A stretch of DNA of 64,000 bases from an uncultured Chlorobiaceae bacterium (GTDB lineage: Bacteria; Bacteroidota; Chlorobiia; Chlorobiales; Chlorobiaceae), in assembly GCA_903843305.1 (NCBI GenBank), contig CAIMPI010000016.1:124001-188000 (forward strand). Reading direction: 5' to 3'. Below are positions 30,587-40,571 of the stretch, in pieces. A program made the translations under genes and the position numbers. Below the pieces are notes generated by a model, which did not search any database, was not told the DNA's origin, and saw only the letters and a list, made by a program, of their open reading frames with translations. The first letter of the stretch is position 1. Each line of letters starts with the position of its first letter.

Positions 30587-30684
30587 CGATAAACTGCGTC
30601 CTGCTGGTGGCTTTTGTTGCTGAGGAATACTGGTTTTGAAACTGCTTGATTTCAGGTAATGTTCACTCTCTCAATAGTGAAGCA

Positions 30685-33600
30685 ATGGCAGACTCTTTTC
30701 TCTATGATGTTTTCCTGAGCCACAACCACGCGGATAAGCCTAAGGTGCGGCGTCTCGCTGAGCGCCTAAAGGTTGCTGGTGTTCGGGTATGGCTGGATGA
30801 GTGGGTTGTCAAAGCTGGCGACATTATCTCTTTGAAAGTGGATGAGGGGCTGGAGCAGTCGCGGGTGCTGTTGCTCTGCATCTCGCCCGCAGCACTGGCT
30901 TCGGGTTGGGTGGCGCTGGAGCGGAGCACCGCCGTCCACCGCGACCCTGCAAACGTTGGTCGCCGCTTTATCCCAATTTTACTTGCAGAATGTGATCTTC
31001 CTGATACGCTTGCGAAATACAAGTATTTGGACTTCTGCGATGAATCTGATGTTGCTTTTGCGGAAGTGCTGACCTCATGCAAGCCAGGAACAGATTCTTT
31101 TCCCCCATCTTCTCAGCATGAGGTTCAGAAGAGAGCAGTAGCGAAAAAGTCAAAATCGGCAACGGCACAGCGGGCGCCTGAACAACTTGCAGTGCTTGAG
31201 AGGAAGCTTATGGGACATAAAGGATGGGTGCGCAGTGTGGCCGTCAGCTCGGATGGCTCTTGGATGGTATCTGGATCGCACGATAAGACGCTCAAGATTT
31301 GGGATCTGGAGAGTGGTGAATGCCAAGTGACGCTTCAAGGGCATACAGGCAAGGTGCTTTCAGTCGCGATCACACCTGATAGAAAGCGGATTCTTTCAAG
31401 TTCAAATGATACGTCGATCCGTATTTGGGATACTCGTTTTGGCAATGAATTGGCGAAGGTGTTTGGTCATAAGCAAGCACAATCAGTGATCGCGTTGCCG
31501 GATAATGATCGAGGACTTTCTGCCGAGAGTTTGACTCTAAAGCTGTTGGATCTTACTGTGGGAGTCTGTCTCAAGACCATTCAATGCAATGAGTATATCT
31601 GGACTAGCGCCCTCAATCAGGCGGGGAACCAAGCGTTGTCAGGGCATGGAGATGGACGAATTCGGCTTTGGAATCTCGAGTCAGGCAAATGTCTGATGAT
31701 TCTTAAAGGCCATTCGGGAGGTGTAAGATCTGTTCAGATTTCGCCGGATGGACGTTCTGCTGTATCTGCTGCGCAAGACAAGACCATCAAAGTTTGGAAT
31801 CTCGAAACGGGGGCCTGTATTGGAACGTTGGAGGGACATCAAGATCGAGTGTTTTCTGTTGCCATCTCCTCCGATGGTACCTTGATTGCTTCTGCGGGGT
31901 TCACTGACCACACGGTTCGACTGTGGGATTGGAAATCGGGGAGATGCTTGCAGGTGATCACAGCCGATGATAATTGGAAGCCGATGTCTGTCGCTTTTAG
32001 TCCTGATGGTTCGCGGCTTGTGGTGGGAATATCTGGGAATACAATTTATGTTTATCGTCTTCGCAGTACTCTACGCAAACTTCCAGTCGTGGCTACGCGT
32101 CGCTACGTGAATGCCAAGGTGGTGCTGCTCGGGGAGGGAACTGCGGGCAAAACTTCTCTGGCGCATCGGTTAATTGAAGATCGATATGTCATCAAGGATC
32201 GCACGCATGGCATGAATGTCTGGCGGCTGGAGCTACCGCTTTCGCCAGACGCCACGCTGGAACGCGAAGCTTTGCTCTGGGATCTTGCTGGACAGGAGGA
32301 TTATCGCCTGATTCATCAACTTTTTCTGGAGCAGACCGCGCTGGCGCTGCTGCTTATTAACCCCCAGAAGGAAGACCCATTTTTTGAAGCAGGAGACTGG
32401 CTCAAGGCTCTGCAGACTGCCGCGAGCATGACGTCATCTGCGAGAGAAGCTGCACGCTTGTTGGTCTTTTCCCAGATAGATGTCGGTGGGATGAAGCTAA
32501 GTAATACGAAGATTAAGCGCTTTTGTGAGCAGCACAGTTTTGCTGACTGGCTCCCAACAAGCTCTAAGTCAGGTGAAAATTGCTCGGATAAAGAGAATGG
32601 TGGAGAGCCCTCGAAACTGAAACAGTTCATTGCTCAGAGCATTCCTTGGGACAAGCTGGAGTGGACGAGTACACCGCGTTTGCTGGCAGAACTGAAGAAT
32701 GCCGTGATGGCTATGCGCGATGAGTCGGACATCCGGTTGCTGCGGTTTGCCGAACTGGCGCAGCGATTGAAACAAGCATTGCCGTGGGAAAAGTTTATAG
32801 AGTCCGATGTGCGCACGGCAGTGACGTTGCTTGCCAACCATGGCTTGGTGCATCCGCTGAAGTTTGGTGATTTAGTGCTACTGCGTCCCGACCTTATCAA
32901 TGGTTACGCTGGGGCAGTAATCCGTGCGGCGCGAGCGCATACGGATGAGATCGGTTGTGTGTTGGAGGCAGATATTTATAAAGAGGATTTCGACTTCATG
33001 GGTGTCGAGCGGCTGAAGCATCATCCCGATGAGGAGCTGCTCCTGCGGGCGCTGGTGCAGACCTTTCTCGATCATTCGCTCTGCATCGCTGAGGATACGC
33101 CGCACGGTCGCCACCTTGTTTTTCCGTCGCAATATCGTCGAGAAAAGGACATCCCGCATGAACCGGATATCTTTGTCTCCTACACCTTCAGCGGCGAATG
33201 GCAGACGATATGGACTACGCTGGTGGTGCGTCTCTGGTACAGTCAGGAATTTGTGCATCGCGAATTGTGGCGAAATGCAGCGGAGTTTGAATCGTCAAGG
33301 AAGCAAACGTTAGGCTTGAAGGTAACGAAAGAGGGAAATGGCGAAGCCTCCATTAGCCTTTACTTTGACCATCAGGTTTCCGATGACTTGAAGGTAATTT
33401 TCATCGAATATGTTCACCGGCATTTGGCCAAGTACGCTTGCGACGTGACGCGAGACCGACGGTATGTCTGCCCGGAGTGCGGCAAGCCTGTCAAAGATAT
33501 TGAAGCAGTTCGCGAACGCATCGCCGACGGAAAGAGCTTCATTATCTGTAATAAGTGCGATGAAAAAGTGCCGTTTATTGACTTTATCGAGCAACGGCTC

Positions 33601-34110
33601 AAGAGCGATCCTGTTGCCCGCGAGATTTTGGCAATGGACGACAATACTAACCGACAACTCGATACCCAAGCGCTAGAGCAAATCCTCATTGGTCATATCA
33701 TGGCTATTGTTGGTGAGGCAAACCAGATATTTCGTCCGGTAACAATGTTCGACTATGGCATTGATGGTGAAGTGGAGTTCAAGGACAACGATGGCAAGGC
33801 CAGCGGCAACAAAATCTACGTACAGCTCAAAAGCGGACACTCCTACCTGCGCACCCGCAAAAGCGATGGTCGCGAGGTCTTCGACGTGACGAACGACCGC
33901 CACCTCGATTACTGGATCAACCAGCCAGTGGTTGTCTATCTCGTTATCCGTCAAAAGGAAGAGATGAGCGGCGAGGAAGTCATCCGCTGGATGAATGTGA
34001 CAAGCTACCTCAAAAATCGGAAGGAAAAGCAAAGCCGCCAGATAATCTTCAGTGGGGAGAAACTCGACATGAAAGCTGTGTATCGGGTGCGGGATAAGTT
34101 TTTTCCATGA
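30685..34110 (+). CDS. Multidomain TIR - WD40 (about 7 blades) - Roc-type GTPase/COR-like - zinc ribbon - DUF4365 (PD-(D/E)XK-like) protein
   Basis: TIR: YDVFLSHNHADKPKVRRLAERLKVAGVRVWLDEW...SGWVALERS; WD40 GH...IWDL repeats; GTPase G1 GEGTAGKTS, G3 DLAGQED; CPEC/CNKC ribbon; DUF4365 FDYGIDGEVEF...IYVQLKSG. Start taken at M14 of the track ORF (MADSFLYDV). Confidence 0.85.
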   Translation: MADSFLYDVFLSHNHADKPKVRRLAERLKVAGVRVWLDEWVVKAGDIISLKVDEGLEQSRVLLLCISPAALASGWVALERSTAVHRDPANVGRRFIPILLAECDLPDTLAKYKYLDFCDESDVAFAEVLTSCKPGTDSFPPSSQHEVQKRAVAKKSKSATAQRAPEQLAVLERKLMGHKGWVRSVAVSSDGSWMVSGSHDKTLKIWDLESGECQVTLQGHTGKVLSVAITPDRKRILSSSNDTSIRIWDTRFGNELAKVFGHKQAQSVIALPDNDRGLSAESLTLKLLDLTVGVCLKTIQCNEYIWTSALNQAGNQALSGHGDGRIRLWNLESGKCLMILKGHSGGVRSVQISPDGRSAVSAAQDKTIKVWNLETGACIGTLEGHQDRVFSVAISSDGTLIASAGFTDHTVRLWDWKSGRCLQVITADDNWKPMSVAFSPDGSRLVVGISGNTIYVYRLRSTLRKLPVVATRRYVNAKVVLLGEGTAGKTSLAHRLIEDRYVIKDRTHGMNVWRLELPLSPDATLEREALLWDLAGQEDYRLIHQLFLEQTALALLLINPQKEDPFFEAGDWLKALQTAASMTSSAREAARLLVFSQIDVGGMKLSNTKIKRFCEQHSFADWLPTSSKSGENCSDKENGGEPSKLKQFIAQSIPWDKLEWTSTPRLLAELKNAVMAMRDESDIRLLRFAELAQRLKQALPWEKFIESDVRTAVTLLANHGLVHPLKFGDLVLLRPDLINGYAGAVIRAARAHTDEIGCVLEADIYKEDFDFMGVERLKHHPDEELLLRALVQTFLDHSLCIAEDTPHGRHLVFPSQYRREKDIPHEPDIFVSYTFSGEWQTIWTTLVVRLWYSQEFVHRELWRNAAEFESSRKQTLGLKVTKEGNGEASISLYFDHQVSDDLKVIFIEYVHRHLAKYACDVTRDRRYVCPECGKPVKDIEAVRERIADGKSFIICNKCDEKVPFIDFIEQRLKSDPVAREILAMDDNTNRQLDTQALEQILIGHIMAIVGEANQIFRPVTMFDYGIDGEVEFKDNDGKASGNKIYVQLKSGHSYLRTRKSDGREVFDVTNDRHLDYWINQPVVVYLVIRQKEEMSGEEVIRWMNVTSYLKNRKEKQSRQIIFSGEKLDMKAVYRVRDKFFP

Positions 34111-34307: not shown

Positions 34308-34429
34308 CTTCGTTCGCCTGTCAATCAGTAGTAACTCAAATACGAGCAAAGCCGAAAGTGAAGGGTATCATCGCTGGTGAGGTACTTAATCCAAGCCAGC
34401 TCAAGAAGTATCTGAACACAGATTGGTAA
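34304..34429 (+). CDS. Small hypothetical ORF (41 aa)
   Basis: MTSFACQSVVTQIRAKPKVKGIIAGEVLNPSQLKKYLNTDW*; overlaps the preceding ORF by ATGA and ends just before the DUF1016 gene. Confidence 0.35.
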   Translation: MTSFACQSVVTQIRAKPKVKGIIAGEVLNPSQLKKYLNTDW

Positions 34430-34440
34430 ATGTGAACAGT

Positions 34441-35601
34441 ATGAACTATAAACAGTTACTTGCCCTTTTCAAAGAGACCCATCTGGAGTTGCAGAAGAGA
34501 GCCGCCCGGTCGGTCGATACCTCCCTTGTGATCCGGAACTGGTTTTTCGGGTGGTATATTGTGGAGTTTGAGCAAGGTGGTGCTGAACGAGCTGAACTCT
34601 ATGGCAAGAGCCTGATCATCCGACTCTCAAGAGAACTCAAAACCCTTGGGTTGAAAGGTGTCTCCTCGACCAGTCTCAAGCAGTGCCGGACGTTTTATCT
34701 GGCTTACAAAAAGATTGGTCAGACACTGTCTGACCAATCTTCTGGTGAGTGCAGTGGACTACAGGAGATTCAACAGACACTGTCTGTTACATCTTTTGAT
34801 GCCATTGCCAATGCTCCCGAGATGCTTCAGGAACTCTCCGCAACATTGGCAGGCAGATTCTCTCTGGGATGGTCGCACTACGTTACTCTGCTGACCATCT
34901 CAAACGTCGATGAAAGAAGGTTTTACGAAATTGAAGCAAGAGAAAACGGTTGGGGTGTAAGGGAACTGGATAGACAGATATCAGCCTCGCTTTATGAACG
35001 GTTGGCACTCAGCAGGGACAAGGAGGGTATCAGGCAGCTTGCTCAAAAGGGGCTGGTTATTGAAAAGGTGAGTGATGTGATCAAGAACCCTTTTGTGCTT
35101 GAGTTTCTTGATCTGGAAGAGAAGAGCGCTTATTCGGAACATGCACTCGAAACGGCCATTATTGAACGTCTTGAACACTTCCTGCTTGAACTGGGCAAGG
35201 GGTTTCTCTTTGAGGCCCGTCAGAAACGGTTCACCTTCGACAACGACCACTTCTATGTTGATCTGGTCTTCTATAATCGTCTTTTGCGCTGCTATGTGCT
35301 CATTGATCTCAAACGCGACAAGCTGACGCATCAGGATCTGGGTCAGATGCAGATGTATGTGAACTACTTTGATCGGTATGTCAAAACCGAAGATGAACTG
35401 CCGACAATCGGCATTCTGTTGTGCCATCGCAAGCATGATGCACTGGTTGAACTGACTCTTCCCAAGGATTCAAATATTTTTGCATCGAAGTATCTGCTCT
35501 ATCTGCCCTCGAAAGAGGAGCTGAAGATGCAACTGGAAGAAGCTGCTGGAATTACGCATCGGGAAAATATAGATCAGGCGGATATGGACAATGTTCGATA
35601 A
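34441..35601 (+). CDS. DUF1016 / YhcG-family PDDEXK nuclease domain protein
   Basis: N-terminal WFFGWYIVEFEQ...LSWSHYVTLL-type region; C-terminal DNDHFYVDLVFYNRLLRCYVLIDLKRDKLTHQDLGQMQMYVNYFDR. Track start 34423; ATG at 34441. Confidence 0.9.
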   Translation: MNYKQLLALFKETHLELQKRAARSVDTSLVIRNWFFGWYIVEFEQGGAERAELYGKSLIIRLSRELKTLGLKGVSSTSLKQCRTFYLAYKKIGQTLSDQSSGECSGLQEIQQTLSVTSFDAIANAPEMLQELSATLAGRFSLGWSHYVTLLTISNVDERRFYEIEARENGWGVRELDRQISASLYERLALSRDKEGIRQLAQKGLVIEKVSDVIKNPFVLEFLDLEEKSAYSEHALETAIIERLEHFLLELGKGFLFEARQKRFTFDNDHFYVDLVFYNRLLRCYVLIDLKRDKLTHQDLGQMQMYVNYFDRYVKTEDELPTIGILLCHRKHDALVELTLPKDSNIFASKYLLYLPSKEELKMQLEEAAGITHRENIDQADMDNVR

Positions 35602-35746
35602 ATGGGTCAATCAGGATAGCAGCACTGTTCTTGCCTGGCGTAACCGGGTTGTTGTTGGGGCTGAAGTCTCTATTCTGGATCTTTTGCGAAAGGTTGTAAA
35701 ACCCACGTTCAAAGCTGCTACTCAAGAGCCATCAATGCTGCGCTGA
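35591..35746 (+). CDS. Small hypothetical ORF (51 aa), possibly a fragment
   Basis: MFDKWVNQDSSTVLAWRNRVVVGAEVSILDLLRKVVKPTFKAATQEPSMLR*; overlaps the DUF1016 gene 3' end and the 3' end of the opposite-strand gene. Confidence 0.25.
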   Translation: MFDKWVNQDSSTVLAWRNRVVVGAEVSILDLLRKVVKPTFKAATQEPSMLR

Positions 35747-36569
35747 TGGCTTTTATAACCGTGGGTGAAGAGATTTTGAATTGCTGCGGGTTCCCGATGA
35801 AAATTGATGGAGGTAAGCTGAGCGGGTTCAGGGTAAGCGATGTCTCTTTTTCAATCAGGGTGATCATGGCCTTGCTGGCCCTTGCGCCAGCAATCTGCAC
35901 GTCTGTTTCACGACAGATCGGGTTGTTTATAAGTTCTCTGATGGCGAAGTATTCGGTTTCCGCCAGGTTTTTTACCGGACGGCAGGAAAATTTTTCCATT
36001 CTGCCATTGTTCGATATGGTCAGCAGCACATAGTTGTTTTCAAGTTCAAGAATGATTTGCGGTTTCACCGTGAACCTCGACAGGTACAGAAGAGGGAGTT
36101 GAGACGTCCCATTGAATACTATCCGGTGTTCGGTTGAAAAGTGCTCTGAAGCTGTTCGGCATGGTTCTGCAGAATAGAAAAGCAGAAGGCGGTTGTCAGG
36201 AGCTTCGTCGCTCATACCATAATGTATACAGTCGCAACGGTACTCTTCAGGATGGTTTAAAAAGTATCCTGCCTCAATCCCGCAGTATTCTGAACATTCT
36301 TCAGGGCTTGCTCCGATGGGAAAGCAAGTTGGAAGAGGCAGATAAATTTCCGGTGCTACGCAGAGCGCAAGCTCTTCCTGGCGCCACTCCTTGAGGTGGT
36401 GGTCGAGCTTTTGCAGAAAACGCATTCTTTTGCCTGAAGCAAGACCGCCAAGTCCATAAGGCATCGTTTTGCATGCACTAAGGATATATCCGCTGCCGCT
36501 GGATGTTTTAAGTCGGACAACAGAGCACTCTTCTGTGTCGATGGTGCAGGCTATGACGCTCTTGCTCAT
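35718..36569 (-). CDS. Conserved hypothetical protein
   Basis: 283 aa ORF beginning MSKSVIACTIDTEECSVVRLKTSSGSGYIL, upstream of a ComEA-like gene; no confident family. Confidence 0.55.
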   Translation of the reverse strand: MSKSVIACTIDTEECSVVRLKTSSGSGYILSACKTMPYGLGGLASGKRMRFLQKLDHHLKEWRQEELALCVAPEIYLPLPTCFPIGASPEECSEYCGIEAGYFLNHPEEYRCDCIHYGMSDEAPDNRLLLFYSAEPCRTASEHFSTEHRIVFNGTSQLPLLYLSRFTVKPQIILELENNYVLLTISNNGRMEKFSCRPVKNLAETEYFAIRELINNPICRETDVQIAGARASKAMITLIEKETSLTLNPLSLPPSIFIGNPQQFKISSPTVIKAISAALMALE

Positions 36570-38470: not shown

Positions 38471-39844
38471 ATGCCGAACCACGATATATTCGGGCTTGCA
38501 GCAGAAACGCCCTTGGTTTTTGTCAAACAGATGACTCGCCACATCAGGCCGAAGGTCATGGCCAAACTGGAGTATATAAATCCGGCATGGTCGCACTACT
38601 ATCGTGTTGCAATGGCTATCGTGAAGGATGCCGAAGAGCGGCACCTGATTCATCCGGGAATGACCCTTGTAGACTGGAGCTTTGGTAACAGCGGGATTGC
38701 CCTTGCCATGGCCTCCGTCAGTCGCGGTTACAAACTCATTCTTGCTGCTCCTGATAAAATATCACGAGAAAAACAGGATATGCTCAGAGCTATCGGCGCT
38801 GAACTGGTTATTACTCCTTCTGACGCATTGCCCGATGAACCACGCAGTTGCATGAACGTGGCAGAAAGTCTGGTAAAGAGCATTCCCAACGCATTTTTTG
38901 TTGGTATGTATGAAAACCCTCTTAGCCTGAAGGTGCACAGTGAGGCTACCGGCAGTGAGATTTTTCAACAGACGGATGGGCAGGTTACCCATGTTTTTGT
39001 ACCGATGGGTTCCGGAGCCATGGTTTTCGGGATCGGTCGTTTTCTGAAAGCGAAGAATCCCGCGATCCGAATTATTGGTGTTGAGCCGCAGGGTTCAATT
39101 TATGCAGGTCTTTTCAAGGATGGAAAACCGGGCACTCCGGCATTTTCCGAGCTTGAGGAGATCGGCTCTCAGCAGGCCTCTGTTTTTTGGGACCCGTCGG
39201 TTATCGATGAAGTGATACAGGTAAGCGATTATGAAGCATTCAATTGCGGTCGAGAACTTTTGCGGATGGAAGCGGTGTTTGCTGGCGGGGCATCGGGTGC
39301 GGTTATGGCCGCAGCGCTTCAGGCTGCGGCGGGATACAGTGAAAAGGACTGTGTTGTAGTGGTGATGAATGATTTTGGTGGTTACTATCTGAGCAAGATG
39401 TATCGTGATGAGTGGATGCGGAAACGGGGCTTTTACCGCAAGGCAAAATCAACAATCGAGCAAATTACCGCAGAGGATATTCTGCAGTTGAAAGCGCGCA
39501 GGGATCTGATATTTGCATGCCCGGAACATACGCTGGCCGAGGTGTTTGAGATGATGAAGCAGAACGATGTTTCTCAGCTTCCGATTGTATCGTATAATGC
39601 TCCGATCGGCAGTATAAGCGAGAACAAGATTCTTTCCATACTTATTGAAAACGATGATGCGATGAATGCAAAGGTAGTGGGATTCATGGAAAAGCCTTTT
39701 CCGGTCTGTCCTCTGGATGCAACAATTTCCGAATTATCAGCAAAACTTCAGCAAAGCGCATCCGGTGTACTGATAAATATGTCGGATGGAAAGCTTCAAC
39801 TGCTTACAAAATATGATCTTATTGATGCGCTAACTCATAAATAG
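38471..39844 (+). CDS. Fold-type II PLP-enzyme homolog (cystathionine beta-synthase/cysteine synthase-like) with C-terminal CBS-domain pair; catalytic lysine apparently missing
   Basis: AKLEYINPAWSHYYRVAMAIVKDAEERHLIHPG...DWSFGNSGIALAMA aligns with canonical KLEFxNPGGSVKDR...TSGNTGI; C-terminal CBS-like repeats. Confidence 0.85.
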   Translation: MPNHDIFGLAAETPLVFVKQMTRHIRPKVMAKLEYINPAWSHYYRVAMAIVKDAEERHLIHPGMTLVDWSFGNSGIALAMASVSRGYKLILAAPDKISREKQDMLRAIGAELVITPSDALPDEPRSCMNVAESLVKSIPNAFFVGMYENPLSLKVHSEATGSEIFQQTDGQVTHVFVPMGSGAMVFGIGRFLKAKNPAIRIIGVEPQGSIYAGLFKDGKPGTPAFSELEEIGSQQASVFWDPSVIDEVIQVSDYEAFNCGRELLRMEAVFAGGASGAVMAAALQAAAGYSEKDCVVVVMNDFGGYYLSKMYRDEWMRKRGFYRKAKSTIEQITAEDILQLKARRDLIFACPEHTLAEVFEMMKQNDVSQLPIVSYNAPIGSISENKILSILIENDDAMNAKVVGFMEKPFPVCPLDATISELSAKLQQSASGVLINMSDGKLQLLTKYDLIDALTHK

Positions 39845-40010: not shown

Positions 40011-40571
40011 ATGAAGGTAGAATCCAAAAAAAGGCAGTTCATTTTGGAGGGTAAGATCAAGGCTTCATTCTGTGAAGGATGCGGCCAGATTACTGAAAAG
40101 GTGTTTGTAGGCGAATGGATGCCGAGCGATAAGCCGAAGTTTGACGATTTTCTGACGTCAGCTCCGGTTAAAAAGTATAAAGAGGGCAAGAATGGTTCGG
40201 CCAATGTTCAACCAGCGGCTGAAAATCAGTACTGGGTTCGTTGTTCCCAGTGTCATCAGGTACACCTTCTTAAGGAATGGCAGATACAGATTGACAGGGA
40301 AGTGAGTCCGGATGAGCTGAACCCCGAAGAGTGTCAGGTCTATTCTCCTCATGGTATTTATGCTAAAGGTGATGCACTGTATCACCAGGCTCTTGGCGAA
40401 GTCGGAGTGGTCAGAGAAAAGCAGGCGACCGGGAGTGGAGCTTTTGTCATTATTGTAGAATTCTGTAAAAGTGGCAGAAAACAACTTCTCGAAAACGTCC
40501 AGTTGAACTCTGTAAATGGAAAAAACTCAGAAAGCGTTACTGATATTATTAAACTTAAACTAAGACGTTAA
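40011..40571 (+). CDS. Hypothetical zinc-ribbon protein
   Basis: Two CxxC pairs (CEGCGQ...CSQCHQ). ATG at 40011; track start 39981. Confidence 0.6.
   Translation: MKVESKKRQFILEGKIKASFCEGCGQITEKVFVGEWMPSDKPKFDDFLTSAPVKKYKEGKNGSANVQPAAENQYWVRCSQCHQVHLLKEWQIQIDREVSPDELNPEECQVYSPHGIYAKGDALYHQALGEVGVVREKQATGSGAFVIIVEFCKSGRKQLLENVQLNSVNGKNSESVTDIIKLKLRR

Follow-up and report, generated by a model that had tools for sequence, protein, structure and literature searches.

Many known pseudoenzymes are paralogs that stand next to an active copy. One module of C. elegans CBS-1 is described as a catalytically degenerate CBS-type core whose PLP residues are lost. That module is fused to an active core and has no CBS domains, and in these respects differs from the protein described here; CBS-1 as a whole is a tandem repeat (PMC4133348). 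TSB-like of eudicots, a paralog of tryptophan synthase beta (a PLP enzyme) that does not itself catalyse, acts as an allosteric activator (PMC12727527), and resembles our case in being a relative of fold-type-II PLP enzymes that turned non-catalytic and was retained. However, TSB-like is a plant paralog alongside an active enzyme, has no CBS pair and acts on TSA, whereas Chlorobiaceae have a single CBS ortholog, and it is this protein that lacks the residues. Stand-alone CBS-pair sensors such as plant CBSX1 (4gqw) carry a CBS pair without catalysis of their own, like the mode proposed below, but lack a PALP domain.

M. tuberculosis Rv1077 (7xnz, PMC9232105), the top sequence match in the PDB, and human CBS share with our protein the domain order, the fold and the Q/T/D signature of the CBS pair. 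In contrast to both, our protein lacks the Schiff-base Lys, the phosphate loop, the N1 Ser and the substrate Gln. No description of the green sulfur bacterial version was found in the open-licence papers that we searched.

Results

The gene, here called pseudo-CBS, occupies 38471..39844 (+) of the window, the whole 64,000-nucleotide stretch of DNA that was analysed. From the ATG at 38471 to the stop TAG at 39844 it encodes 457 aa without internal stops, arranged as a PALP domain (residues 10-299), a linker and a CBS-domain pair. Pfam matches the product to PF00291 (PALP, 7e-60) and to PF00571 (CBS). The latter delimits CBS motif 1 (39494..39646, +; residues 342-392), with the invariant V367, S368, Q369 and P371 inside, and CBS motif 2 (39674..39835, +; about residues 402-455) was placed by alignment to canonical CBS, with no Pfam call. 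TIGR01137 (cystathionine beta-synthase) spans the full length with 342 bits, which is below its equivalog cut-off of 510.25 bits. In the AF2 model the PALP fold is confident and the CBS-pair part is weak, with low confidence; the best Foldseek matches of this model among solved structures are full-length CBS enzymes.

Codons 38591-38602, TCG CAC TAC TAT, encode S41, H42, Y43 and Y44 and are followed by R45. Tyr43 (TAC, 38597..38599, +) takes the position of the PLP Schiff-base Lys (K119 in human CBS) and stands opposite the SVKDR lysine in the alignment, so that the change from SVKDR to SHYYR, and with it the loss of the PLP lysine, is as the preliminary description had claimed. Alignment of orthologs showed this loss to be fixed in Chlorobiaceae: none of the 73 distinct sequences covering the site has Lys (71 Tyr, 1 Asp, 1 Ser), whereas each of the 53 relatives read from other families has Lys (10 orthologs from the Chlorobiales families f3 and f40, and 43 sequences from other parts of the phylum). 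With all 73 Chlorobiaceae orthologs lacking Lys, sequencing error or the oddity of one strain is ruled out. Asp occurs in L047:3313-4683 (SHDYR) and Ser in L060:8001-9371 (SHSYR), both from metagenome-derived genomes, hence Tyr at the Lys position is not strictly required. At residue 44, Chlorobaculum-like sequences carry C or G. Among the conserved Chlorobiaceae lysines of the 73-sequence alignment, none is newly conserved within the PALP core. Three lysines were gained, K326 in the linker and K425 and K457, which fall within the CBS pair or after it; since all three lie outside the PALP core, a replacement lysine was rejected.

Most of the remaining contacts to PLP and substrate are lost as well. 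Equivalences to human CBS were assigned by motif, and the roles of the PLP- and substrate-contact residues are taken to be those of CBS and OASS structures. SFGNSG (38678..38695, +; residues 70-75) replaces TSGNTG of active enzymes, with F/Y at the Ser147 position and S at the T150 position. This change had been noticed before under the label of PLP-phosphate loop; the change stands but the label does not, as the stretch is the Asn/substrate-carboxylate loop. The true PLP-phosphate loop is also altered, from GTGGT (human CBS 256-260) to GSGAM (39008..39022, +; residues 180-184). Moreover, Met146 (38906..38908, +) is found for the invariant substrate-loop Gln (Q222), Glu230 (39158..39160, +) for an invariant Gly (G305) and Ala274 (39290..39292, +) for the Ser bonding PLP N1 (S349).

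Over the Chlorobiaceae, in human CBS numbering, K119 has changed to Y, S147 to F/Y (Ala in Lys-intact Chlorobiales), T150 to S, Q222 to M/L, G256 mostly to A/I/V, T257 to S, T260 to M (68/73), G305 to E/D and S349 to A (71/73). N149 is retained in 51 of the 73, with T/S/D elsewhere, Chlorobaculum-like sequences included. Altogether, the Lys and at least eight more conserved active-site residues are replaced in Chlorobiaceae, and they are intact or nearly so in the 53 relatives. Of the pocket columns conserved in active relatives, 9 of 15 are replaced; for conserved PALP columns outside the pocket the figure is 16 of 71 (Fisher p = 0.009). This test is descriptive only, because the pocket set was picked after seeing the alignment. 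The Schiff-base Lys, GTGGT, the N1 Ser and a sufficient TIGR01137 score would mark a functional cystathionine beta-synthase, an enzyme condensing Ser with homocysteine, and pseudo-CBS has none of the four.

The gene was found in 79 of 86 Chlorobiaceae genomes and in 63 of the 65 good ones, the named loci including Chlorobium, Chlorobaculum and Pelodictyon luteolum; in another Chlorobiales family, f2, two genomes have no full-length ortholog. It is flanked by alr, g39981 and aroA, and this synteny is fixed in Chlorobiaceae. Directly downstream of both Lys-less and Lys-intact CBS genes lies g39981. The gene after it is aroA in Chlorobiaceae and in three of the five Lys-intact flanks read, namely that of the f40 genome and two of the four from f3. 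The shared order of CBS and g39981, with aroA where found, indicates that these genes are positional orthologs and not paralogs. Neighbour genes were rejected as the cause of the change, since Lys-intact orthologs likewise have g39981 beside them, and some of them aroA.

The gene tree gives support of 100/100 to the Chlorobiales CBS clade and to Chlorobiaceae within it. The Chlorobiaceae stem, with 0.93 changes per column, is the longest inner branch, and the crown branches are short. In quick per-domain trees with shorter searches, the stem measures 1.13 in PALP, where this branch carries the midpoint root, and 0.56 in the CBS pair. By its PALP domain and CBS pair, by the tree and by synteny, pseudo-CBS belongs to the CBS protein lineage by descent.

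The neighbour g39981 (40011..40571, +; ATG at 40011) encodes 186 aa with a putative four-Cys ribbon (C21/C24 and C78/C81) and a beta-rich C-terminal half. It adjoins CBS in three Chlorobiales families and is highly constrained; it has no Pfam or NCBIfam match, and its AF2 model is weak (pLDDT 63).

Median dN/dS in Chlorobiaceae (NG86, 269 pairs with dS < 1) is 0.079 for the whole gene, 0.096 for PALP and 0.041 for the CBS pair. In each of the 2485 Chlorobiaceae pairs the CBS pair is the better conserved domain, with a mean identity of 87.0% against 72.7% for PALP, whereas PALP is the better conserved in each of the 153 pairs of Lys-intact sequences (6 within f3, 91 among others and 56 between), for example with 73.9 versus 61.4% and 65.1 versus 36.1%; the pairs are not independent of one another, and the sign is uniform throughout. 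The earlier impression that fold and CBS pair are well preserved holds, exceptionally so, for the CBS pair; PALP is still folded but has strongly diverged on the stem. Judged by its sequence, pseudo-CBS is a pseudoenzyme, that is, an enzyme homolog that has lost catalytic residues and is retained by purifying selection, and its description as a CBS pseudoenzyme throughout the family, in which the constraint on the two domains is inverted, is well supported. Within the limits of sequence evidence, both the Lys loss and a re-purposing of the protein are shown.

The human CBS SAM site includes Q445, T535 and D538 (PMC9232105). Matching residues in pseudo-CBS are Q369, T446 and D449, retained in 73, 70 and 73 of the 73 Chlorobiaceae sequences (Asn at the T446 position in the other 3); T446-x-x-D449 (39806..39817, +) is thereby predicted from alignment to be the signature of adenosine site S2. 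Where the human SAM site has the aromatic F443, pseudo-CBS has V367. In fly CBS, Val at this position was argued to preclude SAM (PMC4133348). However, the SAM-responsive M. tuberculosis enzyme likewise has Val there in our alignment, so the ligand could be SAM or another adenosine compound. In addition, Y322, K326, H456 and K457 are new invariant residues of linker and tail in Chlorobiaceae, and are candidates for a partner surface.

Discussion

The fixed loss of Lys, the loss of other contacts, the absence of a new PALP-core Lys and the strong purifying selection together make a non-PLP function the best reading, in agreement with the preliminary description. Moreover, as the PLP residues are lost and the regulatory end is now the best conserved, pseudo-CBS is probably a sensor or regulator and not an enzyme. 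We propose, with a probability of roughly 55%, that a vertically inherited CBS ceased to bind PLP and to act as an enzyme on the Chlorobiaceae stem and was re-purposed as an adenosyl-ligand sensor signalling to a partner; a sensor role is the best-supported hypothesis for this protein.

According to this model, PLP chemistry would have been dispensed with on the stem, plausibly because these obligate sulfide-using phototrophs may make Cys by direct sulfhydrylation. The PALP half would be kept as a folded, probably dimeric scaffold, and the CBS (Bateman) pair, only regulatory in active enzymes, may have gained, or kept, an independent role as the part now constrained. S2 of the pair would bind S-adenosylmethionine or an adenine nucleotide, and the conserved linker might relay the occupancy of this site to a partner protein. 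More tentatively, and at rather less than even odds, the only CBS enzyme of Chlorobiaceae may have become a dedicated adenosyl receptor, for SAM or energy charge, with the allosteric module as functional core and the catalytic core as output scaffold. If true, this would be a full role swap between domains in an orthologous single-copy protein.

A partner might also be sought in CysK. As a prozyme, inactive pseudo-CBS would form a heteromer with this active fold-type-II enzyme and tune it, with adenosyl control contributed by the CBS pair. CysK, with SVKDR intact and a TIGR01139 score of 464 bits, is the sole other strong homolog in the genome, and TSB-like (PMC12727527) and deoxyhypusine synthase (PMC3663545) offer precedents; however, the two proteins are only 34% identical and cysK is unlinked, on a different contig, and we regard such a heteromer as unlikely. 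Conservation of the replacement residues Y43, M146, A274 and Y305 themselves suggests a pocket shaped by selection, as would be expected if pseudo-CBS were still an enzyme with PLP-free chemistry or bound another small molecule there. Yet Y43 is replaced in two genomes and residue 44 varies as described above, no conserved new acid, base or metal set is recognisable, and constraint is strongest in the CBS pair rather than round the pocket, all of which makes a working pocket improbable.

That PLP is still held, via another lysine or non-covalently, seems more doubtful again: the loop Asn persists in 51/73 and the conserved K32 is close in sequence, but active enzymes also have K32 without exception, so that it is not a replacement lysine, none of the lysines gained occupies a conserved PALP position, and the phosphate loop and N1 Ser were lost together. 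Active-site loss alone would be expected of a decaying gene or artefact, an explanation hardly to be entertained for an ORF without internal stops, in fixed synteny, with omega of 0.08 and present in 63/65 good genomes; dN/dS and synteny rule out a pseudogene.

In the proposed sensor, then, a single-copy ortholog lost its chemistry family-wide while its regulatory module was tightened, which would make the Chlorobiaceae a clean example, supplied by nature, of a regulator that has outlived its enzyme. For Chlorobiaceae, automatic annotation as cystathionine beta-synthase is probably mistaken, and this gene should not be taken as evidence of the reverse transsulfuration step there. Chlorobaculum tepidum is described in PMC3842273 as genetically tractable, with conjugative plasmids, which makes the pseudo-CBS question testable.

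Upstream in the window, a conserved 283-aa protein (35718-36569, -), without Pfam or NCBIfam match, adjoins a ComEA-like HHH gene throughout Chlorobiaceae. Further upstream, a 1154-aa ORF (30646-34110) reads like a ROCO-like protein with a TIR-type N-terminus, WD40 repeats and a Ras-like GTPase; the gene after it encodes a YhcG/PDDEXK nuclease (34423-35601). Similar genes occur close to the locus in just a few relatives (L045, L095), suggesting a possible mobile defence island.
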